Below are positions 37,751 to 49,231 of a stretch of 64,000 nucleotides of DNA, in pieces. A program made the position numbers and the translations under genes. Numbering within the stretch: position 1 is the first letter of the stretch; each line of letters opens with the position of its first letter. The stretch spans positions 3,156,040 through 3,220,039 of the forward strand of contig NZ_CP017415.1 in assembly GCF_001753245.1 (NCBI RefSeq). Direction: 5' to 3'. The stretch is from Acidihalobacter yilgarnensis (GTDB lineage Bacteria > Pseudomonadota > Gammaproteobacteria > DSM-5130 > Acidihalobacteraceae). A model generated the notes under the pieces. That model made no database searches. It worked only from the letters and a program-made list of their open reading frames with translations, and was not told the origin of the DNA.

Positions 37751-39346
<1,596 letters not shown>

Positions 39347-40647: not shown

Positions 40648-40820
40648 CTAATCGGGGAAAAGCGCGAGCGGTGAGGTGGAAGATAGAAGATGATCATGCA
40701 GGCGCTCGATCTACAGTCGAGCCCATTCGATGACATGGCTGACGGCGCGGCCTATGGCCACATCATGCGCATATCTGTTTCTGGACAAAAGACGTTACGG
40801 CTTTCAGCCAGAATCGGGCA
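40648..40820 (+). repeat. diverged direct repeat, copy A (after the IS)
   Basis: Continues the sequence downstream of the activator beyond the IS. It matches the stretch from about 44.00 kb in the same order: AAAGCG-GAG, GGAAGATAGAA, CAGTCGAG, TCATGCGAATATCTGTTTCTGGA (here CATGCGCATATCTGTTTCTGGAC). The match is around three quarters by eye. It marks one border of the segment with the TonB receptor. Confidence 0.7.
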
Positions 40821-43343: not shown

Positions 43344-43932
43344 GTGTGCATCTTGAAATATCAGAGGATGCTCAATTATGTTGAACTGGAAACCGTGAAT
43401 GATTGGTAACAGCAGAATGAACTAATTATTTTTTGAACATTAACATCTGGTAATTATAAGCATTGGTTATCGACTGGCGTACGAGCGCGCTCAAAAACTC
43501 AGATCAGGAGATATAAAAATAAGTTATCGTTTTCTGCGGATCACCAATTCAATCACCTTGGTCTCCAGATCGTGCCACGCGAGCGGGCACTAATCCGCGA
43601 TACTGAATCCCGAGACAAGATTCGATCCTAGATTCATCGAGTGACATTCCGATCCTGAATATTGAGGTGGGTATTTGGGGGCATAATGAAACGTTTTATC
43701 GAGGACAATAAGCGACAGTAAACCACGTCGCTCTCAAAAGACTCGACGATTTCGTTGCCAAACAACACGGTTCGCGTCGTTGATGTATTTGACTTGGATG
43801 CATTGGGTTTCAAGGTTAATCCCAAGGCCACAGACCACCCTGGCCACCCTGGCCATCCTCCGGGGACGATGATCAAGCAATTCATCTACGGCCATCTCAA
43901 CCGGGTACAGTCAACGCCCTCGTATCGCCATA
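43344..43932. other. AT-rich intergenic region upstream of the TonB receptor
   Basis: Likely promoter region for the receptor (minus strand), AT-rich at 43.40-43.52 kb. A Fur-box-like stretch around 43450-43470 is too weak to call. Around 43835-43865 a short run of CACCCTGGC-type units encodes Gly-His-Pro repeats in an unsupported ORF. No convincing gene seen. Confidence 0.45.
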
Positions 43933-44165
43933 CTCCCACACACCAGAAACTCAAATCGCACGGCGTCAAGCCCGCCGAACACCGAAACCCCAGGGCACTA
44001 ACCAGGTGAAAGCGAGAGGAGGAAGATAGAAAATGCTGATGGAAGCGCGCGATCTTCAGTCGAGGCCATCGGCGACGATGGCGGACGGATGCATCCTATG
44101 GCAGTATCATGCGAATATCTGTTTCTGGATAAGAAACATCGGCGGCATTCGGCCAACTGCACCCT
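43933..44165 (+). repeat. diverged direct repeat, copy B, with activator 3'-end fragment
   Basis: Begins with a second copy of the last codons of the sigma-54 activator (HQKLKSHGVKPAEHR against HQKLKSHGIKPAEYR at the end of the gene at 37751), then continues through the same downstream DNA as copy A at 40648. The rest of the activator is absent, so this is a 3'-end fragment, not a gene. Copies A and B bracket the TonB receptor segment. Confidence 0.78.
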
Positions 44166-44311
44166 CCTTGTTTACCACATTTGACCGTCAGCCTTCTCCC
44201 ATGAACGGACATCAACCTTATCTGTCTGATGTATGTACAGGACAACGATTAAAGGGCAGTTGTATGGTGTCTGGAAAACTGGTGACGATTCAATCTGATG
44301 TTGCTAGGTGA

Positions 44312-44390
44312 GACTAAATAATTTAGGGGGCTGGGACGACCTCTCCGCTGCTTCGCAGTTCCGAGTCTGCCCCTAAGCCGGGCGTTAAAT
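44312..44390 (+). other. attC-like integron recombination site, upstream of the RT gene
   Basis: Imperfect palindrome ending GCCCCTAAGCCGGGCGTTAAAT, with the R' box GTTAAAT (44384-44390) matching GTTRRRY 14 bp before the RT start. Internal arms TTAGGGG (44323) and CCCCTAA (44370) pair, and CTGCTTCGCAG forms a small apical hairpin. The distal R'' box is poorly conserved, so the call is tentative. Confidence 0.5.
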
Positions 44391-44403
44391 CGCGCGAGAA
44401 ATT

Positions 44404-45987
44404 ATGAACAGAAATGATGCGGTAGAACTCGCAGTTGAGAGCATCCTCAGGGACGGATGCAGTGATATTACGTCCGAGTCACTAGAGCTAGGTCTGATCG
44501 AGCAATTTCGGGCTGACTTCGAATCCGATGTGAAGGCAAAGCTGAAGCGTGGCAATGTCTTTGAGATGGAGTTTCGGCCTTTACAATACATTTTGACGCC
44601 AAAAAATAGGTACATTTTCGATTATAGGAAGGCGGCAATCATAAGTCCCAGTTGCCTAGCAAAATTCTTGGCCATTGTTTTTCAATATGCCGAGGTTGTT
44701 GAGAACGCCCGTATTCCGTCATCAGAGAATATTGTCTATTCTTGCCGATTCTCGCCGAATCCTGACGGCATCTTTGACAAAAACATCGGTTATTCAAACT
44801 GGCGCGAAAATACGAGAGAACGTGCAGAGTCTGAAGATTGTGAGTTTGTTGTGTCTTGCGACATCGCTGCGTTTTACGATCGCGTCAATATCCATCGCAT
44901 CGAATCTACGCTTTTAAGTATTGGCGTCGATCCAGCGCTCGTCAGATACACAAACGATTTACTCCTCTTTTGGTCACGAAAGGATAGCTACGGGATTCCA
45001 GTAGGTAACGTAGCTAGTCGTATTCTTGCAGAGGCCGCACTTATCGACATTGATCAATATTTGCTGGCCGAGGAAATTAAGTTTACCCGCTACGTCGATG
45101 ATTACAGGATTTTTGCTCCGAGTTTGCTTGTGGCTCAGGAGTGGATGAACAAACTGACCACTCGATTATTTCGTGATGGGTTGATGTTGAACACAGGGAA
45201 GACGCAGATCAGTAAGGCCAAGAAAAAAGGTCAGGAAGATGAGTCTGAGCAGCATGACGAGGAGCAGGCGGCGGAAACGGTTCTTAAGGTGATTACAAAG
45301 CTAACTGGTGGCTACAACAGAATCGCCAGAAAATTTGTTATGCCTTCTGAGGACAAGCATGAATCCTTCAAGGGTATCGATTTGGATAAGGAGCTTACGC
45401 TCTTGTCGAAGCAGACCATTGTCGATTTTTCTGGGATTCAGAAAGTGGTAATAGCAGCGTTGGTGCAAAAGAGGTTCGACCTTTTGATGCAGATTGCCAC
45501 CGTTTGCAGTCGATACCTATACGGACTCGATTACTTCATCGATATGTTACTTAAAAATTCAAAGTTCATTCCGGAAGCTGAGCGTAATCGACTAGCAGAT
45601 ATGTACGCAACACTGATTGATACGGGAGAGCTTTATTCGTTTGAGTGGCATTGCGCTTCCGTAGCCAGATTATTGAGCTCATCAGTATACTTTCGAAAGA
45701 ATGCACTTATTCAGCTATACAAAACGCCTGCAAAGGACGTTTCCACATACGCTTCGATGATCGCGCTCGAGGGATTGAAAGGGAGACTTACACGATCAGA
45801 ATTTCTCACAATTCGTGAATATTTCGACAGGTCAGATGAGTGGGAAAGGCGCCGACTGCTCGCATTGTCTGATGCGCTCCCTGACGAGGAACGGAAGGCC
45901 TGGGGCAAAGCCGTCAAATCAACTCTGACAAACGATGTTCTTGGGACAAAACTTTGTGAGCAGGTAATTCGTGGCGGTGCGATCTAA
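44404..45987 (+). CDS. reverse transcriptase, defence-type (UG/Abi-like), cassette-borne
   Basis: RNA-directed DNA polymerase-type protein of 527 residues. Palm motifs are clear: VVSCDIAAFYDRVN (first catalytic Asp), YGIPVGNVASRILAEAAL and FTRYVDDYRIF (YVDD box), at about residues 145-265. The C-terminal about 240 residues are alpha-helical without known motifs, as in phage-defence reverse transcriptases of the Abi/unknown groups rather than retroviral or group II intron enzymes (no maturase or endonuclease domain). GC content is far lower than the genome. The gene starts 14 bp after an attC-like end, and its stop lies inside the next attC-like R'' box, the layout of an integron gene cassette. 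Family membership beyond RT is not resolved. Confidence 0.88.
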   Translation: MNRNDAVELAVESILRDGCSDITSESLELGLIEQFRADFESDVKAKLKRGNVFEMEFRPLQYILTPKNRYIFDYRKAAIISPSCLAKFLAIVFQYAEVVENARIPSSENIVYSCRFSPNPDGIFDKNIGYSNWRENTRERAESEDCEFVVSCDIAAFYDRVNIHRIESTLLSIGVDPALVRYTNDLLLFWSRKDSYGIPVGNVASRILAEAALIDIDQYLLAEEIKFTRYVDDYRIFAPSLLVAQEWMNKLTTRLFRDGLMLNTGKTQISKAKKKGQEDESEQHDEEQAAETVLKVITKLTGGYNRIARKFVMPSEDKHESFKGIDLDKELTLLSKQTIVDFSGIQKVVIAALVQKRFDLLMQIATVCSRYLYGLDYFIDMLLKNSKFIPEAERNRLADMYATLIDTGELYSFEWHCASVARLLSSSVYFRKNALIQLYKTPAKDVSTYASMIALEGLKGRLTRSEFLTIREYFDRSDEWERRRLLALSDALPDEERKAWGKAVKSTLTNDVLGTKLCEQVIRGGAI

Positions 45988-46080
45988 CAAATCGCTGCAG
46001 GTGACGATTGACCCGCTACGTACTGTTGCCATCACAAAAGCACGTATCGCCTCAAGCGCACCCGAGCTCAGGCGTTGAAG
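45982..46080 (+). other. attC-like integron recombination site, downstream of the RT gene
   Basis: Starts with R'' ATCTAAC (matches RYYYAAC, contains the RT stop TAA) and ends GAGCTCAGGCGTTGAAG with R' GTTGAAG (GTTRRRY except the last base). Inner arms GCTGCAGGTG and CACCCGAGC pair with one bulge. Length 99 bp, normal for attC. It is the better of the two sites. Confidence 0.66.
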
Positions 46081-46297
46081 GACCGCTGTGTCGGGTCTGG
46101 GGCAAACAGCGGCGTGCCGATATACGACCGGCAGCAGTGGGTCGACTTCAGACAAAGCGGAGGATACGGTTCTGAGCTCAGCCACTAGCAGCCTGGTTTC
46201 AATCATCATCAAGAGTCTGTTTTTTTACCCAAGAAAGTGCATTCTGCGTTGTAGGTAGAGCAGAATTATTTCACTATCCAAGAAGGATTGTTACGTC
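46081..46297. other. non-coding gap between the cassette and the next ORF
   Basis: No gene seen. With the attC-like site before it, the non-coding stretch after the RT gene is about 310 bp. A run of T (46217-46224) and AAGAAGGATTG just before 46298 could supply a terminator tract and the ribosome binding site of the next gene. Confidence 0.4.
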
Positions 46298-47155
46298 ATG
46301 AATGTACTTGCTATTTGGAAAAACCGCTTTTACGAAGGCGACTATAATGAGGTCCACGCAGTCGTTCCTATGCCGGTGTTGAGTACAGTCAAATGTGAAT
46401 TTATTAAAGAGCCTACAACGCCTGGAGACCAAGTGGTATTCCGCGAGGATGACTTTGATCCTGTCACTCGGATTAGGCGTGGCCGGCTATATATAGGAGG
46501 GCCTACGCATCTTGATTTCGGCCAAGTAATTGTTAATGGGTTAAACCAACATAATTGGCTTACTATGCCCCCGTCAGTTTCTTATACTCCGTGGAATACG
46601 CCAAGTACACAAAACGATATTTTAGGTCAGCACATCCGTATTGGCAGCGACGGTTTCGAAACCTTATGGCGTATAATCGGAGTAGAGAAACTAACCATAG
46701 GTCATATCTTACTGACCCTTCGAGCCACTTCACTTCTGGGGACTATCCCTGACCTAGCTGACCAAATATGTGACTTGGCGCGCACTGCTGTCAATCGGTC
46801 TTTAGTAATAAGGCAGCTTGATGCATTAGTTGACACCTCACGGCGTCAACAGGAGATAGCAACGGTCGACGCAGCGAGAGAAACCGCTAGGGTAGTGTTA
46901 GCCGCATGGATCGGAGAGTGCGTTTCTGGAAAAGATCTAAAGGATGTAATTACCAATATTCCCGACGGAAGGGAGGTAATCCGAAGTGCTGCCTTCATCA
47001 TTAACAGATTGCATCCACGCGGAAAATCCGCTGAACACGAATCGCGAGCAGCTGATGGCTCAATAGTACGCACTGTAGATCCTGAGGATGCAGAAACAAG
47101 TGTGCATCTTGTTGGTATGATTTTGCGTGAAATCGGCTGGACTTCACCAAATTAA
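46298..47155 (+). CDS. hypothetical protein downstream of the RT cassette
   Basis: A 285-residue soluble protein I do not recognise. The N-terminal half (about 1-130) looks beta-rich with many aromatic residues (WKNRFYEGDYNEVHAVVP, FREDDFDPVTRIRRGRLYIGG); the C-terminal half is helical with a charged stretch RRQQEIATVDAARETARVV. There is no signal peptide or transmembrane segment. AAGGA lies 9 nt before the ATG. Base composition is as low in GC as the RT gene, and it lies in the same direction, so it may belong to the same acquired segment. No clear attC follows it. Confidence 0.65.
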   Translation: MNVLAIWKNRFYEGDYNEVHAVVPMPVLSTVKCEFIKEPTTPGDQVVFREDDFDPVTRIRRGRLYIGGPTHLDFGQVIVNGLNQHNWLTMPPSVSYTPWNTPSTQNDILGQHIRIGSDGFETLWRIIGVEKLTIGHILLTLRATSLLGTIPDLADQICDLARTAVNRSLVIRQLDALVDTSRRQQEIATVDAARETARVVLAAWIGECVSGKDLKDVITNIPDGREVIRSAAFIINRLHPRGKSAEHESRAADGSIVRTVDPEDAETSVHLVGMILREIGWTSPN

Positions 47156-47484
47156 CCCTGCGTAAATGGGTATCAGGTGAATCACCTCCAGATTTTTGGG
47201 CCCTTCGTAGTCGTTCTTCCAATGTCCGCAAAGCGCGAGATTGCCGACGGCATCGGGGAATCATGCAAATGACTGATTAGGGCCTAATTCTACCGTTCAT
47301 GACTCACATCCTGGTCACATCCAACTTTATTGATCGACATCGATCAGTTCTTAACGGCAGCCGGCCAACTGATTGACTGTTTCCAATGATTCATGCCGCC
47401 ATACCCCGGCATTAAAAATGCCCAATCACACTCAATAATGTTGCGATTCGAACAAACTGCAATTAGCGCTTCTCTGTAAATCCA
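47156..47484. other. intergenic region, convergent gene ends
   Basis: Lies between the ends of two convergent genes. It contains a 13-bp palindrome AGGTGAATCACCT near 47176 and otherwise only short unsupported ORFs. The end of the low-GC island is somewhere here. Confidence 0.4.
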
Positions 47485-48414
47485 TCATTTGTTTACGGCA
47501 TTAAAACCCGGTAGTTCTGGAAGGCGTCGACAGAGAAATTGGATGAGTGCCATCGCTCGCTGCGGAAGATAGCGCCTGGATGGGTAAACCAAGTATAGAG
47601 GCTGTGAATCCAGCGTCCACTCTGGCAATAAATGAACGAGCGAGCCATCGTCAATCAAATCTTGCACCAACCAGGCGGGAGCCGTGCCCAAGCCCACCCC
47701 TGCCAGAAAACATTGCTTAAGCGCCAACGAACTATTGATCCGATAGCGGCCCACTGGCGTAACAACAACGATCTTATCGCCGCTGACAAACTCAAGCTGA
47801 CTTAGCGATGCAATGCCGCCAAATCGGATATACGAATGCCTACTAAGCGCTTCGGGGTCGTCAAGAGGAGGGGCGGTTTCAAGATATGAGCTATGGGCTA
47901 CTAAGAGACGGGGAGATGAAGCAAGTTTTCTAGCGATGACATTGGGAGGGAGATCCGCGCTTAACCGGATCGCCAAGTCAACGCCTTCCTCAACCAAATC
48001 CACGATTCGATCACTCAGAACGAGCTCTAGCTCAATTTCTGGGTAGTCAGTTAGAAATTCTATCGCAAGGCTATTGAGCCGTAATTCACCAAGCCCGACA
48101 GGAGCCGCGACGACGAGTTTGCCAACCGCCTGCGTTGTCTGACCGCGAACCTCGGCAACTGTGTCGGTATATTCTTCGAGCAAACCCTTGGTTCGATCAT
48201 AGAGTCGACGGCCTTCGTCCGTGAGGACGAGGGCCGTCGTACTCCGCTTGATTAAGCGGACCCCTAACTCATGCTCTAACTTGGAAATTATTTTACTCAT
48301 GGTGGGCTGGGTAACATCAGCTTCATGCGCTGCGGCTGTAAATGAACCTAGCTCAACGACACGAATAAAATTTTGCAGTGCCTGCAATGTGTCCACGTCA
48401 TTCCTTTTGGGCAT
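47485..48414 (-). CDS. LysR-family transcriptional regulator
   Basis: A 309-residue regulator with an N-terminal winged HTH (LQNFIRVVELGSFTAAAHEADVTQPTMSKIISKLEHELG split across residues 8-50) and a C-terminal periplasmic-binding-like effector domain (about 95-300). It is divergently transcribed from the SDR at 48497, the common layout for a LysR regulator and its target. The start is uncertain: ATG at 48414 (chosen, as the HTH begins soon after) or 48438; neither has a clear ribosome binding site. The effector is unknown. Confidence 0.92.
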   Translation of the reverse strand: MPKRNDVDTLQALQNFIRVVELGSFTAAAHEADVTQPTMSKIISKLEHELGVRLIKRSTTALVLTDEGRRLYDRTKGLLEEYTDTVAEVRGQTTQAVGKLVVAAPVGLGELRLNSLAIEFLTDYPEIELELVLSDRIVDLVEEGVDLAIRLSADLPPNVIARKLASSPRLLVAHSSYLETAPPLDDPEALSRHSYIRFGGIASLSQLEFVSGDKIVVVTPVGRYRINSSLALKQCFLAGVGLGTAPAWLVQDLIDDGSLVHLLPEWTLDSQPLYLVYPSRRYLPQRAMALIQFLCRRLPELPGFNAVNK

Positions 48415-48496
48415 GATGCATATGCCATTCATACACATTACTTAGAAAAAAGGAATGACTTAATGTCCTGGTTCCCAAATCCAGGAAAACCAGACA

Positions 48497-49231
48497 ATGA
48501 ACTCATGCTTGACGCAACCCCTTACTGACACCCATATCGTCATAGTCGGCGGTAGTGCAGGTATCGGCTTAGCGACCGCTGCTACCGCCAAAGCGAGGGG
48601 CGCCTCTGCGACGCTCATCGGTCGCAATGCCGAGCGACTGGAACTGGCATCGAAGGACATCGGAGGCGCAAGAACAGGCGTTGCCGATATCAGCGACCGC
48701 ACTCAGATTGAGACGGTTTTCGCAAACATGTCGCCGATAGACCATCTGGTCATCACTGCCGGTAGCCTTCAGGCAGGGCTTGTCGCTGAGTCAGATCCGG
48801 ATCGTCTGTTACGGGCAGTCGACGAGCGTATCGCGGGAGCGCTTTACGTTATCAAGGCAGCCTTGCCGCTGATGTCGTTTCAAGGATCAATCGTGTTAAC
48901 GGGTGGACAATATTCGGATCGCCCCACAGGTCAAGGAACAGCACTCACCGCGATGGCAGTACGCGGCATCGAAGCACTAGCGCAGTCGCTTGCACTCGAA
49001 CTGAGTCCTATCAGGGTCAATGTTATTGCCCCTGGTCTGATTGACACCGCCTTATTCGATAGTCTTGGAGCTGACATCCGAGCCGGGATTTTTCGAGCGG
49101 CAACGAAGTCTTTACCTGTCGGTCGCGTCGGAACTCCGGAAGAGGTCGCTGACGCGATCATATTTCTGCTTACCAATGGCTACATGAATGGCGAGGTCTT
49201 ACATATCGACGGTGGCGGTCGGCTTGTCTGA
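48497..49231 (+). CDS. atypical SDR-family protein lacking Tyr-Lys pair
   Basis: SDR-fold protein of 244 residues. The cofactor motif VGGSAGIG and the C-terminal VLHIDGGGRLV are typical, and the Ser/Thr region LTGGQY is kept. The YxxxK catalytic pair is replaced: where Y-x3-K is expected the sequence reads GQGTALTAMAVRGIEAL. Either another residue serves or it acts as a non-catalytic binding protein. It is divergent from the LysR gene, which probably controls it. Confidence 0.85.
   Translation: MNSCLTQPLTDTHIVIVGGSAGIGLATAATAKARGASATLIGRNAERLELASKDIGGARTGVADISDRTQIETVFANMSPIDHLVITAGSLQAGLVAESDPDRLLRAVDERIAGALYVIKAALPLMSFQGSIVLTGGQYSDRPTGQGTALTAMAVRGIEALAQSLALELSPIRVNVIAPGLIDTALFDSLGADIRAGIFRAATKSLPVGRVGTPEEVADAIIFLLTNGYMNGEVLHIDGGGRLV

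Follow-up and report, generated by a model that had tools for sequence, protein, structure and literature searches.

A Predicted DRT8-Group Reverse Transcriptase Very Probably Carried as a Solitary Integron Cassette in Acidihalobacter yilgarnensis

The locus and its boundaries

The stretch of DNA analyzed here (the window; 64,000 nucleotides, C1:3156040–3220039 of the 3.57 Mb, single-contig genome of Acidihalobacter yilgarnensis) holds a reverse transcriptase (RT) gene whose product gives the only RVT_1 match in the whole genome. The features around it are, in window coordinates:

43474..47480, no strand: stretch missing at matching places in two congeners and containing the cassette; homologous blocks stop at 43473 and 47481
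43940..44292, no strand: insertion sequence remnants just 5′ of the cassette, matching 39283–39334, 40673–40810 and C1:2311239–2311388
44312..44390, + strand: degenerate attC-like palindrome upstream of the gene, with a good 3′ half at 44367–44390 (full model 3.5 bits, half-site 13.1 bits)
44385..46074, + strand: inferred cassette unit of ~1690 bp, from the G/TT of the upstream R′ box to that of its own R′ box; delimited by the R′ boxes, its own attC being called by covariance model and the 5′ boundary by a half-site only
44404..45987, + strand: RT of 527 aa, stand-alone, Drt8 type (PADLOC Drt8 393.5 bits, E 5e-118; RVT_1 47.9 bits)
44860..44862, + strand: codon of the motif A aspartate D153 (CDIAAFYD), invariant across six aligned relatives
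45091..45102, + strand: YVDD catalytic motif, residues 230–233, from translation and alignment
45982..46080, + strand: attC of the RT cassette (25.3 bits, E 6.8e-4), with R″ at 45982–45988 and R′ at 46074–46080
46081..46145, + strand: stretch past the RT's attC, shared with an AbiU/AIPR cassette locus at C1:3450.4 kb (69% identity over window 45978–46145)

The open reading frame is intact across its 527 codons and keeps every catalytic residue, both D153 and the YVDD motif being invariant in the alignment. A sequence-only reading of this DNA had described a low-GC RT with a YVDD motif and a long helical C-terminus, and each element of that description was recovered: motif A and YVDD are encoded in the frame, the GC content of the region is ~0.45 against 0.60–0.67 in the core regions around it, and the helical C-terminus appears in the predicted structure. 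A further frame behind the cassette (46298–47155, 285 aa) is also of low GC and matches nothing in Pfam, PADLOC or NCBIfam.

Searches with strict palindrome patterns (RYYYAAC with GTTRRRY) overlooked both the site behind the RT gene and the attCs of the integron resident in the same genome, the R′ boxes of which read GTTAGAG or GTTAGAA. A covariance model comprising the R and L helices was therefore built from 26 aligned attCs from integron arrays of other gammaproteobacteria, none of which came from the window, from the resident integron or from G290, the genome of a second gammaproteobacterium discussed below. The model works on unseen sites, because it recovers the three attCs of the resident integron (59.7, 32.5 and 28.3 bits) as well as the array of G290, held-out attCs being found at 28–60 bits. 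Over 38 attCs, covariation is seen in the paired columns: 86.8% of cells are paired, compared with 67.1% in shuffles and 24–43% in slid controls, in an alignment that was fitted to the model and leans towards it. By DNA folding energy alone, the sites could not be told apart from shuffles (z −1.8 to +0.5).

The best match to this model in the window is the site at the end of the RT gene, the second best scoring 12.1 bits, and the stop codon of the gene (TAA, 45985–45987) lies within its R″ box (ATCTAAC), just as had been noted from the letters alone. The site shows paired R″/R′ and L″/L′ boxes and is 82% identical to an attC in the congener G002, where the counterpart, one of nine attCs in an array, belongs to a methyltransferase cassette, scores 41.4 bits and likewise holds the stop codon in R″. 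Scanned genome-wide, the attC of the RT ranks 16th at E 0.04: it is a weak site, yet above background. On the 5′ side, the R′ box GTTAAAT (44384–44390) sits 13 nt ahead of the ATG, in keeping with the claim that the gene starts just after such a box. The claim that attC-like palindromes bound the gene on both sides stands for the downstream one, whereas the upstream palindrome, taken as a full attC, is not significant (E 0.55 over 251 nt) and has the degenerate R″ box GACTAAA. Its 3′ half, scored with weights from 29 array sites that themselves score 9–26, is the second best half-site of the window on both strands, and we read the upstream palindrome as a decayed attC. Because just one attC at the locus is secure, the locus is a solitary cassette and not the cassette cluster that had been proposed: a CALIN, in which attCs lie together without an integrase, usually has a minimum of two attCs (PMC12444791), and here one is significant. 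Clusters of the CALIN type do exist elsewhere in the same genome.

A DRT8 subclade with a member in an intact integron

PADLOC returns Drt8 as the top family, matching over residues 4–511, with UG21 second at 129.6 bits, whereas all NCBIfam scores are far under their cut-offs, Drt4, for instance, reaching 67.9 bits where 450 are required. By family, the enzyme is thus assigned to the defence-type RTs, as the first reading had it, and specifically to a divergent subclade of the DRT8 anti-phage group, itself one of the UG/Abi RTs; that it serves in phage defence is likely. It has in common with DRT8 a best family match by far, a single ORF, the YVDD motif and a (here predicted) helical C-terminus. 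It differs in falling into a sister subclade, with ~21–28% identity to more typical Drt8 members, and in riding, together with its G290 relative, as an integron cassette. The finding that the sequence-only reading had named as refuting it, no attC score above threshold together with an RT falling within group II introns or diversity-generating retroelements (DGRs), did not emerge: an attC is found, PADLOC and NCBIfam return DRT families, and no DGR-like long, near-identical repeat pair occurs in 43400–48500.

The close subclade consists of four proteins, namely the window RT and its relatives from a KSB1 metagenome-assembled genome (L010, 65% identity), from G290 (60%) and from a Caballeronia plasmid (58%), all four matching Drt8 at 387–407 bits. 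In the tree, these four and the more distant G561 protein (32%) form a clade sister to the remaining Drt8 members with 100/100 support, on long branches that leave the exact place unsure. No close relatives were found in viral contigs, which held just distant Drt8 members, and no subclade members in the phage collection; nor did the orders of the two cassette hosts yield further ones. Drt8 genes as such occur in ~1% of sampled genomes (4/369 and 4/398, with the host genome counted in both). Among the Drt8 genes encountered, one in a viral-collection contig (L080 3175–8975) lies between genes resembling type I restriction-modification subunits, and one (L022 2437–4920, minus strand) has an 827-aa frame whose C-terminus carries a long additional part, by appearance membrane-anchored and coiled-coil. 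A third (L021 5028–8187) has a REP-associated-type transposase gene close behind it, and a gene for a similar transposase also lies behind the resident integron's cassettes (L011 12633–13496).

The G290 gene (L023 6125–7714) is a cassette inside a real integron. The attCs on its two sides score 45.9 and 51.8 bits and belong to an array of ~10, an integron integrase (IntI, 404 bits) lies ~5 kb ahead of the first attC found, and the genes next to it give matches to GajA/OLD-like ATPases and to PD-Lambda-3_A (171 bits). The ATG of the G290 RT gene is preceded by 19 nt, and its stop codon falls within R″, as in the window. Since this relative sits in an intact integron among defence genes, the comparison suggests that RTs of the DRT8 group are able to travel as cassettes of a single gene. 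In the tree, at modest support, the window and G290 RTs do not come out as sisters. Candidate attCs beside the KSB1 and Caballeronia relatives, palindromic by eye, were rejected by the covariance model. With its 3′ attC, the 82%-identical attC in the G002 array and the independent RT cassette of G290, the integron-like cassette first proposed has held up, and we regard the window locus as very probably a real integron cassette.

The cassette in its host genome

The absence of an integrase, as originally asserted, applies to the window, in which no full integron integrase was found, and not to the organism: a full-length IntI (473 bits) lies at C1:22520–23458, followed by cassettes with attCs, and an integrase missing from the genome as a whole is thereby rejected. 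If the contig is circular, ~387 kb separate the RT locus from this IntI. A C-terminal IntI remnant (C1:855745–856050, L003 1501–1806, a 107-aa frame) was also seen, with an attC-like site of 30.3 bits nearby. The genome-wide scan gave 15 attC matches above that of the RT, at eight other places, to which local scans add a few more.

Genes next to these attCs include AbiU/AIPR, TIR, TIR-TM, HEC-07 and PDC-M34B genes, and the scattered cassettes look like a defence store, the genes having been picked by eye and the description being no statistical claim. The AbiU/AIPR gene (L072 4556–6241, minus strand, C1:3450.6–3452.2 kb; AIPR 106.5 bits) is flanked by an attC of 35.5 bits and an attC-like site of 17.6 bits, and it is this 17.6-bit site behind the gene, with the stretch beyond it, that resembles the end of the RT cassette and the DNA following it. 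Two TIR-domain genes, both on the minus strand, lie directly before attCs, one (L071 5507–6316, 3304–3305 kb) before a site of 56.2 bits and the other (L073 5568–6542, 1639 kb; PADLOC TIR-TM 207 bits) before one of 36.5 bits. At 454–459 kb (L069 3700–8260), six attCs cluster without an integrase, the cassettes there including HEC-07 and PDC-M34B (HEPN) candidates, and an E1-E2 gene near 3266 kb is close to another attC.

The cassette itself lies in a stretch (43474–47480) that is specific to the host among the genomes compared (congeners G001 and G002). The congeners G001, G002 and G003 have several attCs each and no Drt8 gene. We propose that an integron integrase probably captured the RT cassette, which would now lie outside the resident integron in this small species-specific stretch, its own attC still recognizable and the upstream one decayed.

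Whatever the RT does elsewhere, the cassette could in this genome be a relic, stranded, untranscribed and immobile, and we consider this a substantial possibility, albeit the lesser one; it is compatible with our best explanation of the protein. The upstream attC is degenerate, the insertion sequence remnants end at 44292, 20 bp short of it, the cassette's own attC is among the weakest of the genome, and no integrase is nearby. Because no promoter-like site was found just 5′ of the RT ATG, the cassette may be silent in its host. Against a relic stand the frame, intact throughout with all catalytic residues present, and a Drt8 score equal to that of the relatives.

Possible activity, further alternatives and meaning

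An AlphaFold model of the RT, computed from five sequences (mean pLDDT 66.5), comprises an RT domain followed by a helical C-terminus, with pLDDT mostly <60 at residues 275–450. The best Foldseek rows for this model are DRT6, UG15/DRT4, AbiK and AbiP2. When re-aligned, DRT6 (Z 15.8 over 407 residues), DRT4 (15.0 over 388) and AbiK (14.3 over 380) match nearly the whole model at an rmsd of ~7–8, whereas the group II, DGR, DRT2 and DRT9 rows mostly end by residue 300. The sequence profile likewise has UG15/DRT4 as the nearest solved relative. The window RT thus resembles DRT4 (UG15), DRT6 and AbiK, all of which are stand-alone single genes, by profile (UG15/DRT4) and predicted full-length fold; it is not a member of DRT4 by the NCBIfam score given above, and sequence similarity to the three is confined to the RT core. 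DRT4 makes random single-stranded DNA without a template, which a phage DNA-binding protein protects and so renders toxic (PMC13213688), and AbiK is reported, in work cited in PMC3710099, to produce untemplated DNA that is bound to AbiK itself.

From this likeness in fold and profile, and because there is no room for a separate ncRNA gene, we favour a DRT4/AbiK-like reaction, an assignment that we make tentatively and that is close to evenly balanced. The RT would act alone as a DNA polymerase, protein-primed and without a nucleic-acid template, as DRT4, DRT6 and AbiK do, and its DNA product would harm the infected cell or sequester phage DNA-binding proteins. It should need no linked ncRNA, because the ATG is preceded by 13 nt in the window and by 19 nt in G290, and only an attC follows the stop codon. 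Taken as a whole, a solitary cassette with an intact, stand-alone RT of the DRT8 group working as a DRT4/AbiK-like anti-phage polymerase is our best explanation, and on balance we find it probable.

Cassette and defence role would be the same if the RT were instead RNA-templated with an ncRNA, in the manner of DRT2, DRT3 and DRT9, several DRTs requiring one (PMC13213688), and if that RNA overlapped the ORF, formed the attC-bearing end of the transcript or came from elsewhere. We think this unlikely, though it deserves some weight: the transcript ends in an attC able to fold into a long hairpin, and the mechanism of DRT8 is not established (PMC13213688). The little space 5′ of the ATG in window and G290 alike speaks against it, as do the lack of DNA similarity outside the ORF to the KSB1, G290 and Caballeronia relatives and an Rfam search of the RT region at E up to 5, which gave no match to any RNA, be it intron RNA or msr-msd.

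It is very improbable that this is an ordinary defence RT gene and that the attC-like palindromes beside it are chance hairpins. Such a reading would fit the lack of significance of the upstream palindrome, the absence of an attC beside the KSB1 and Caballeronia relatives and the unremarkable folding energy. It is countered by the score of the downstream site, well clear of the runner-up in the window, by the identity of that site to an attC within a real array, by the stop codon held in R″ in both the window and G290, and by the G290 relative, a cassette beyond doubt. Still less probable, and in our view highly so, is that the RT uses the transcript of its own cassette, attC included, as a template, giving a cDNA that equals the attC bottom strand, the strand that integrases recombine. 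If true, this would make a self-copying “retro-cassette”, in which the RT helps to spread its own cassette besides or instead of defending against phage. Against this, attCs are scattered as well in congeners that lack a Drt8 gene, and scattering in general therefore does not depend on the RT. A fragment of an attC-inserting group IIC intron, or a retron, is rejected with near certainty, since, although group II introns have been described in association with integrons (PMC7923331) and the predicted RT domain fold resembles group II RTs, the Drt8 score stands against 53.9 bits for the group II maturase model (cut-off 300) and 30 bits for the retron St85 model (cut-off 235), Pfam gives RVT_1 and no maturase domain, no intron RNA is matched in the region, and just 13 nt separate R′ from the ATG.

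Our preferred reading, a solitary cassette encoding a DRT8-group anti-phage polymerase, touches on two bodies of work. Integron cassettes with defence genes are well documented, in 2025 studies cited by PMC12409362 and PMC12444791, and attC loci scattered away from the integrase have been described in Xanthomonas (PMC12444791). With the defence cassettes of Vibrio and Xanthomonas chromosomal integrons and CALINs, the window locus has in common a defence-like gene with its own attC, in or outside an array; it differs from them in its cargo, a DNA-making RT in 1.6 kb, and from CALINs in its one secure attC, under the usual two. Among the openly readable papers searched, we found no DRT described as an integron cassette. 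Defence cassettes and DRT8 are each known already; what our analysis supports as new is a DRT8 RT as an integron cassette, its novelty being unproven.

A cassette is one gene plus an attC, and the same RT subclade being cassette-borne in two gammaproteobacteria amounts to a natural minimality test: the cassette form predicts that a single ORF suffices, without a separate ncRNA. Integrons would thereby count DNA-making defence enzymes among the cargo they can store and shuffle.
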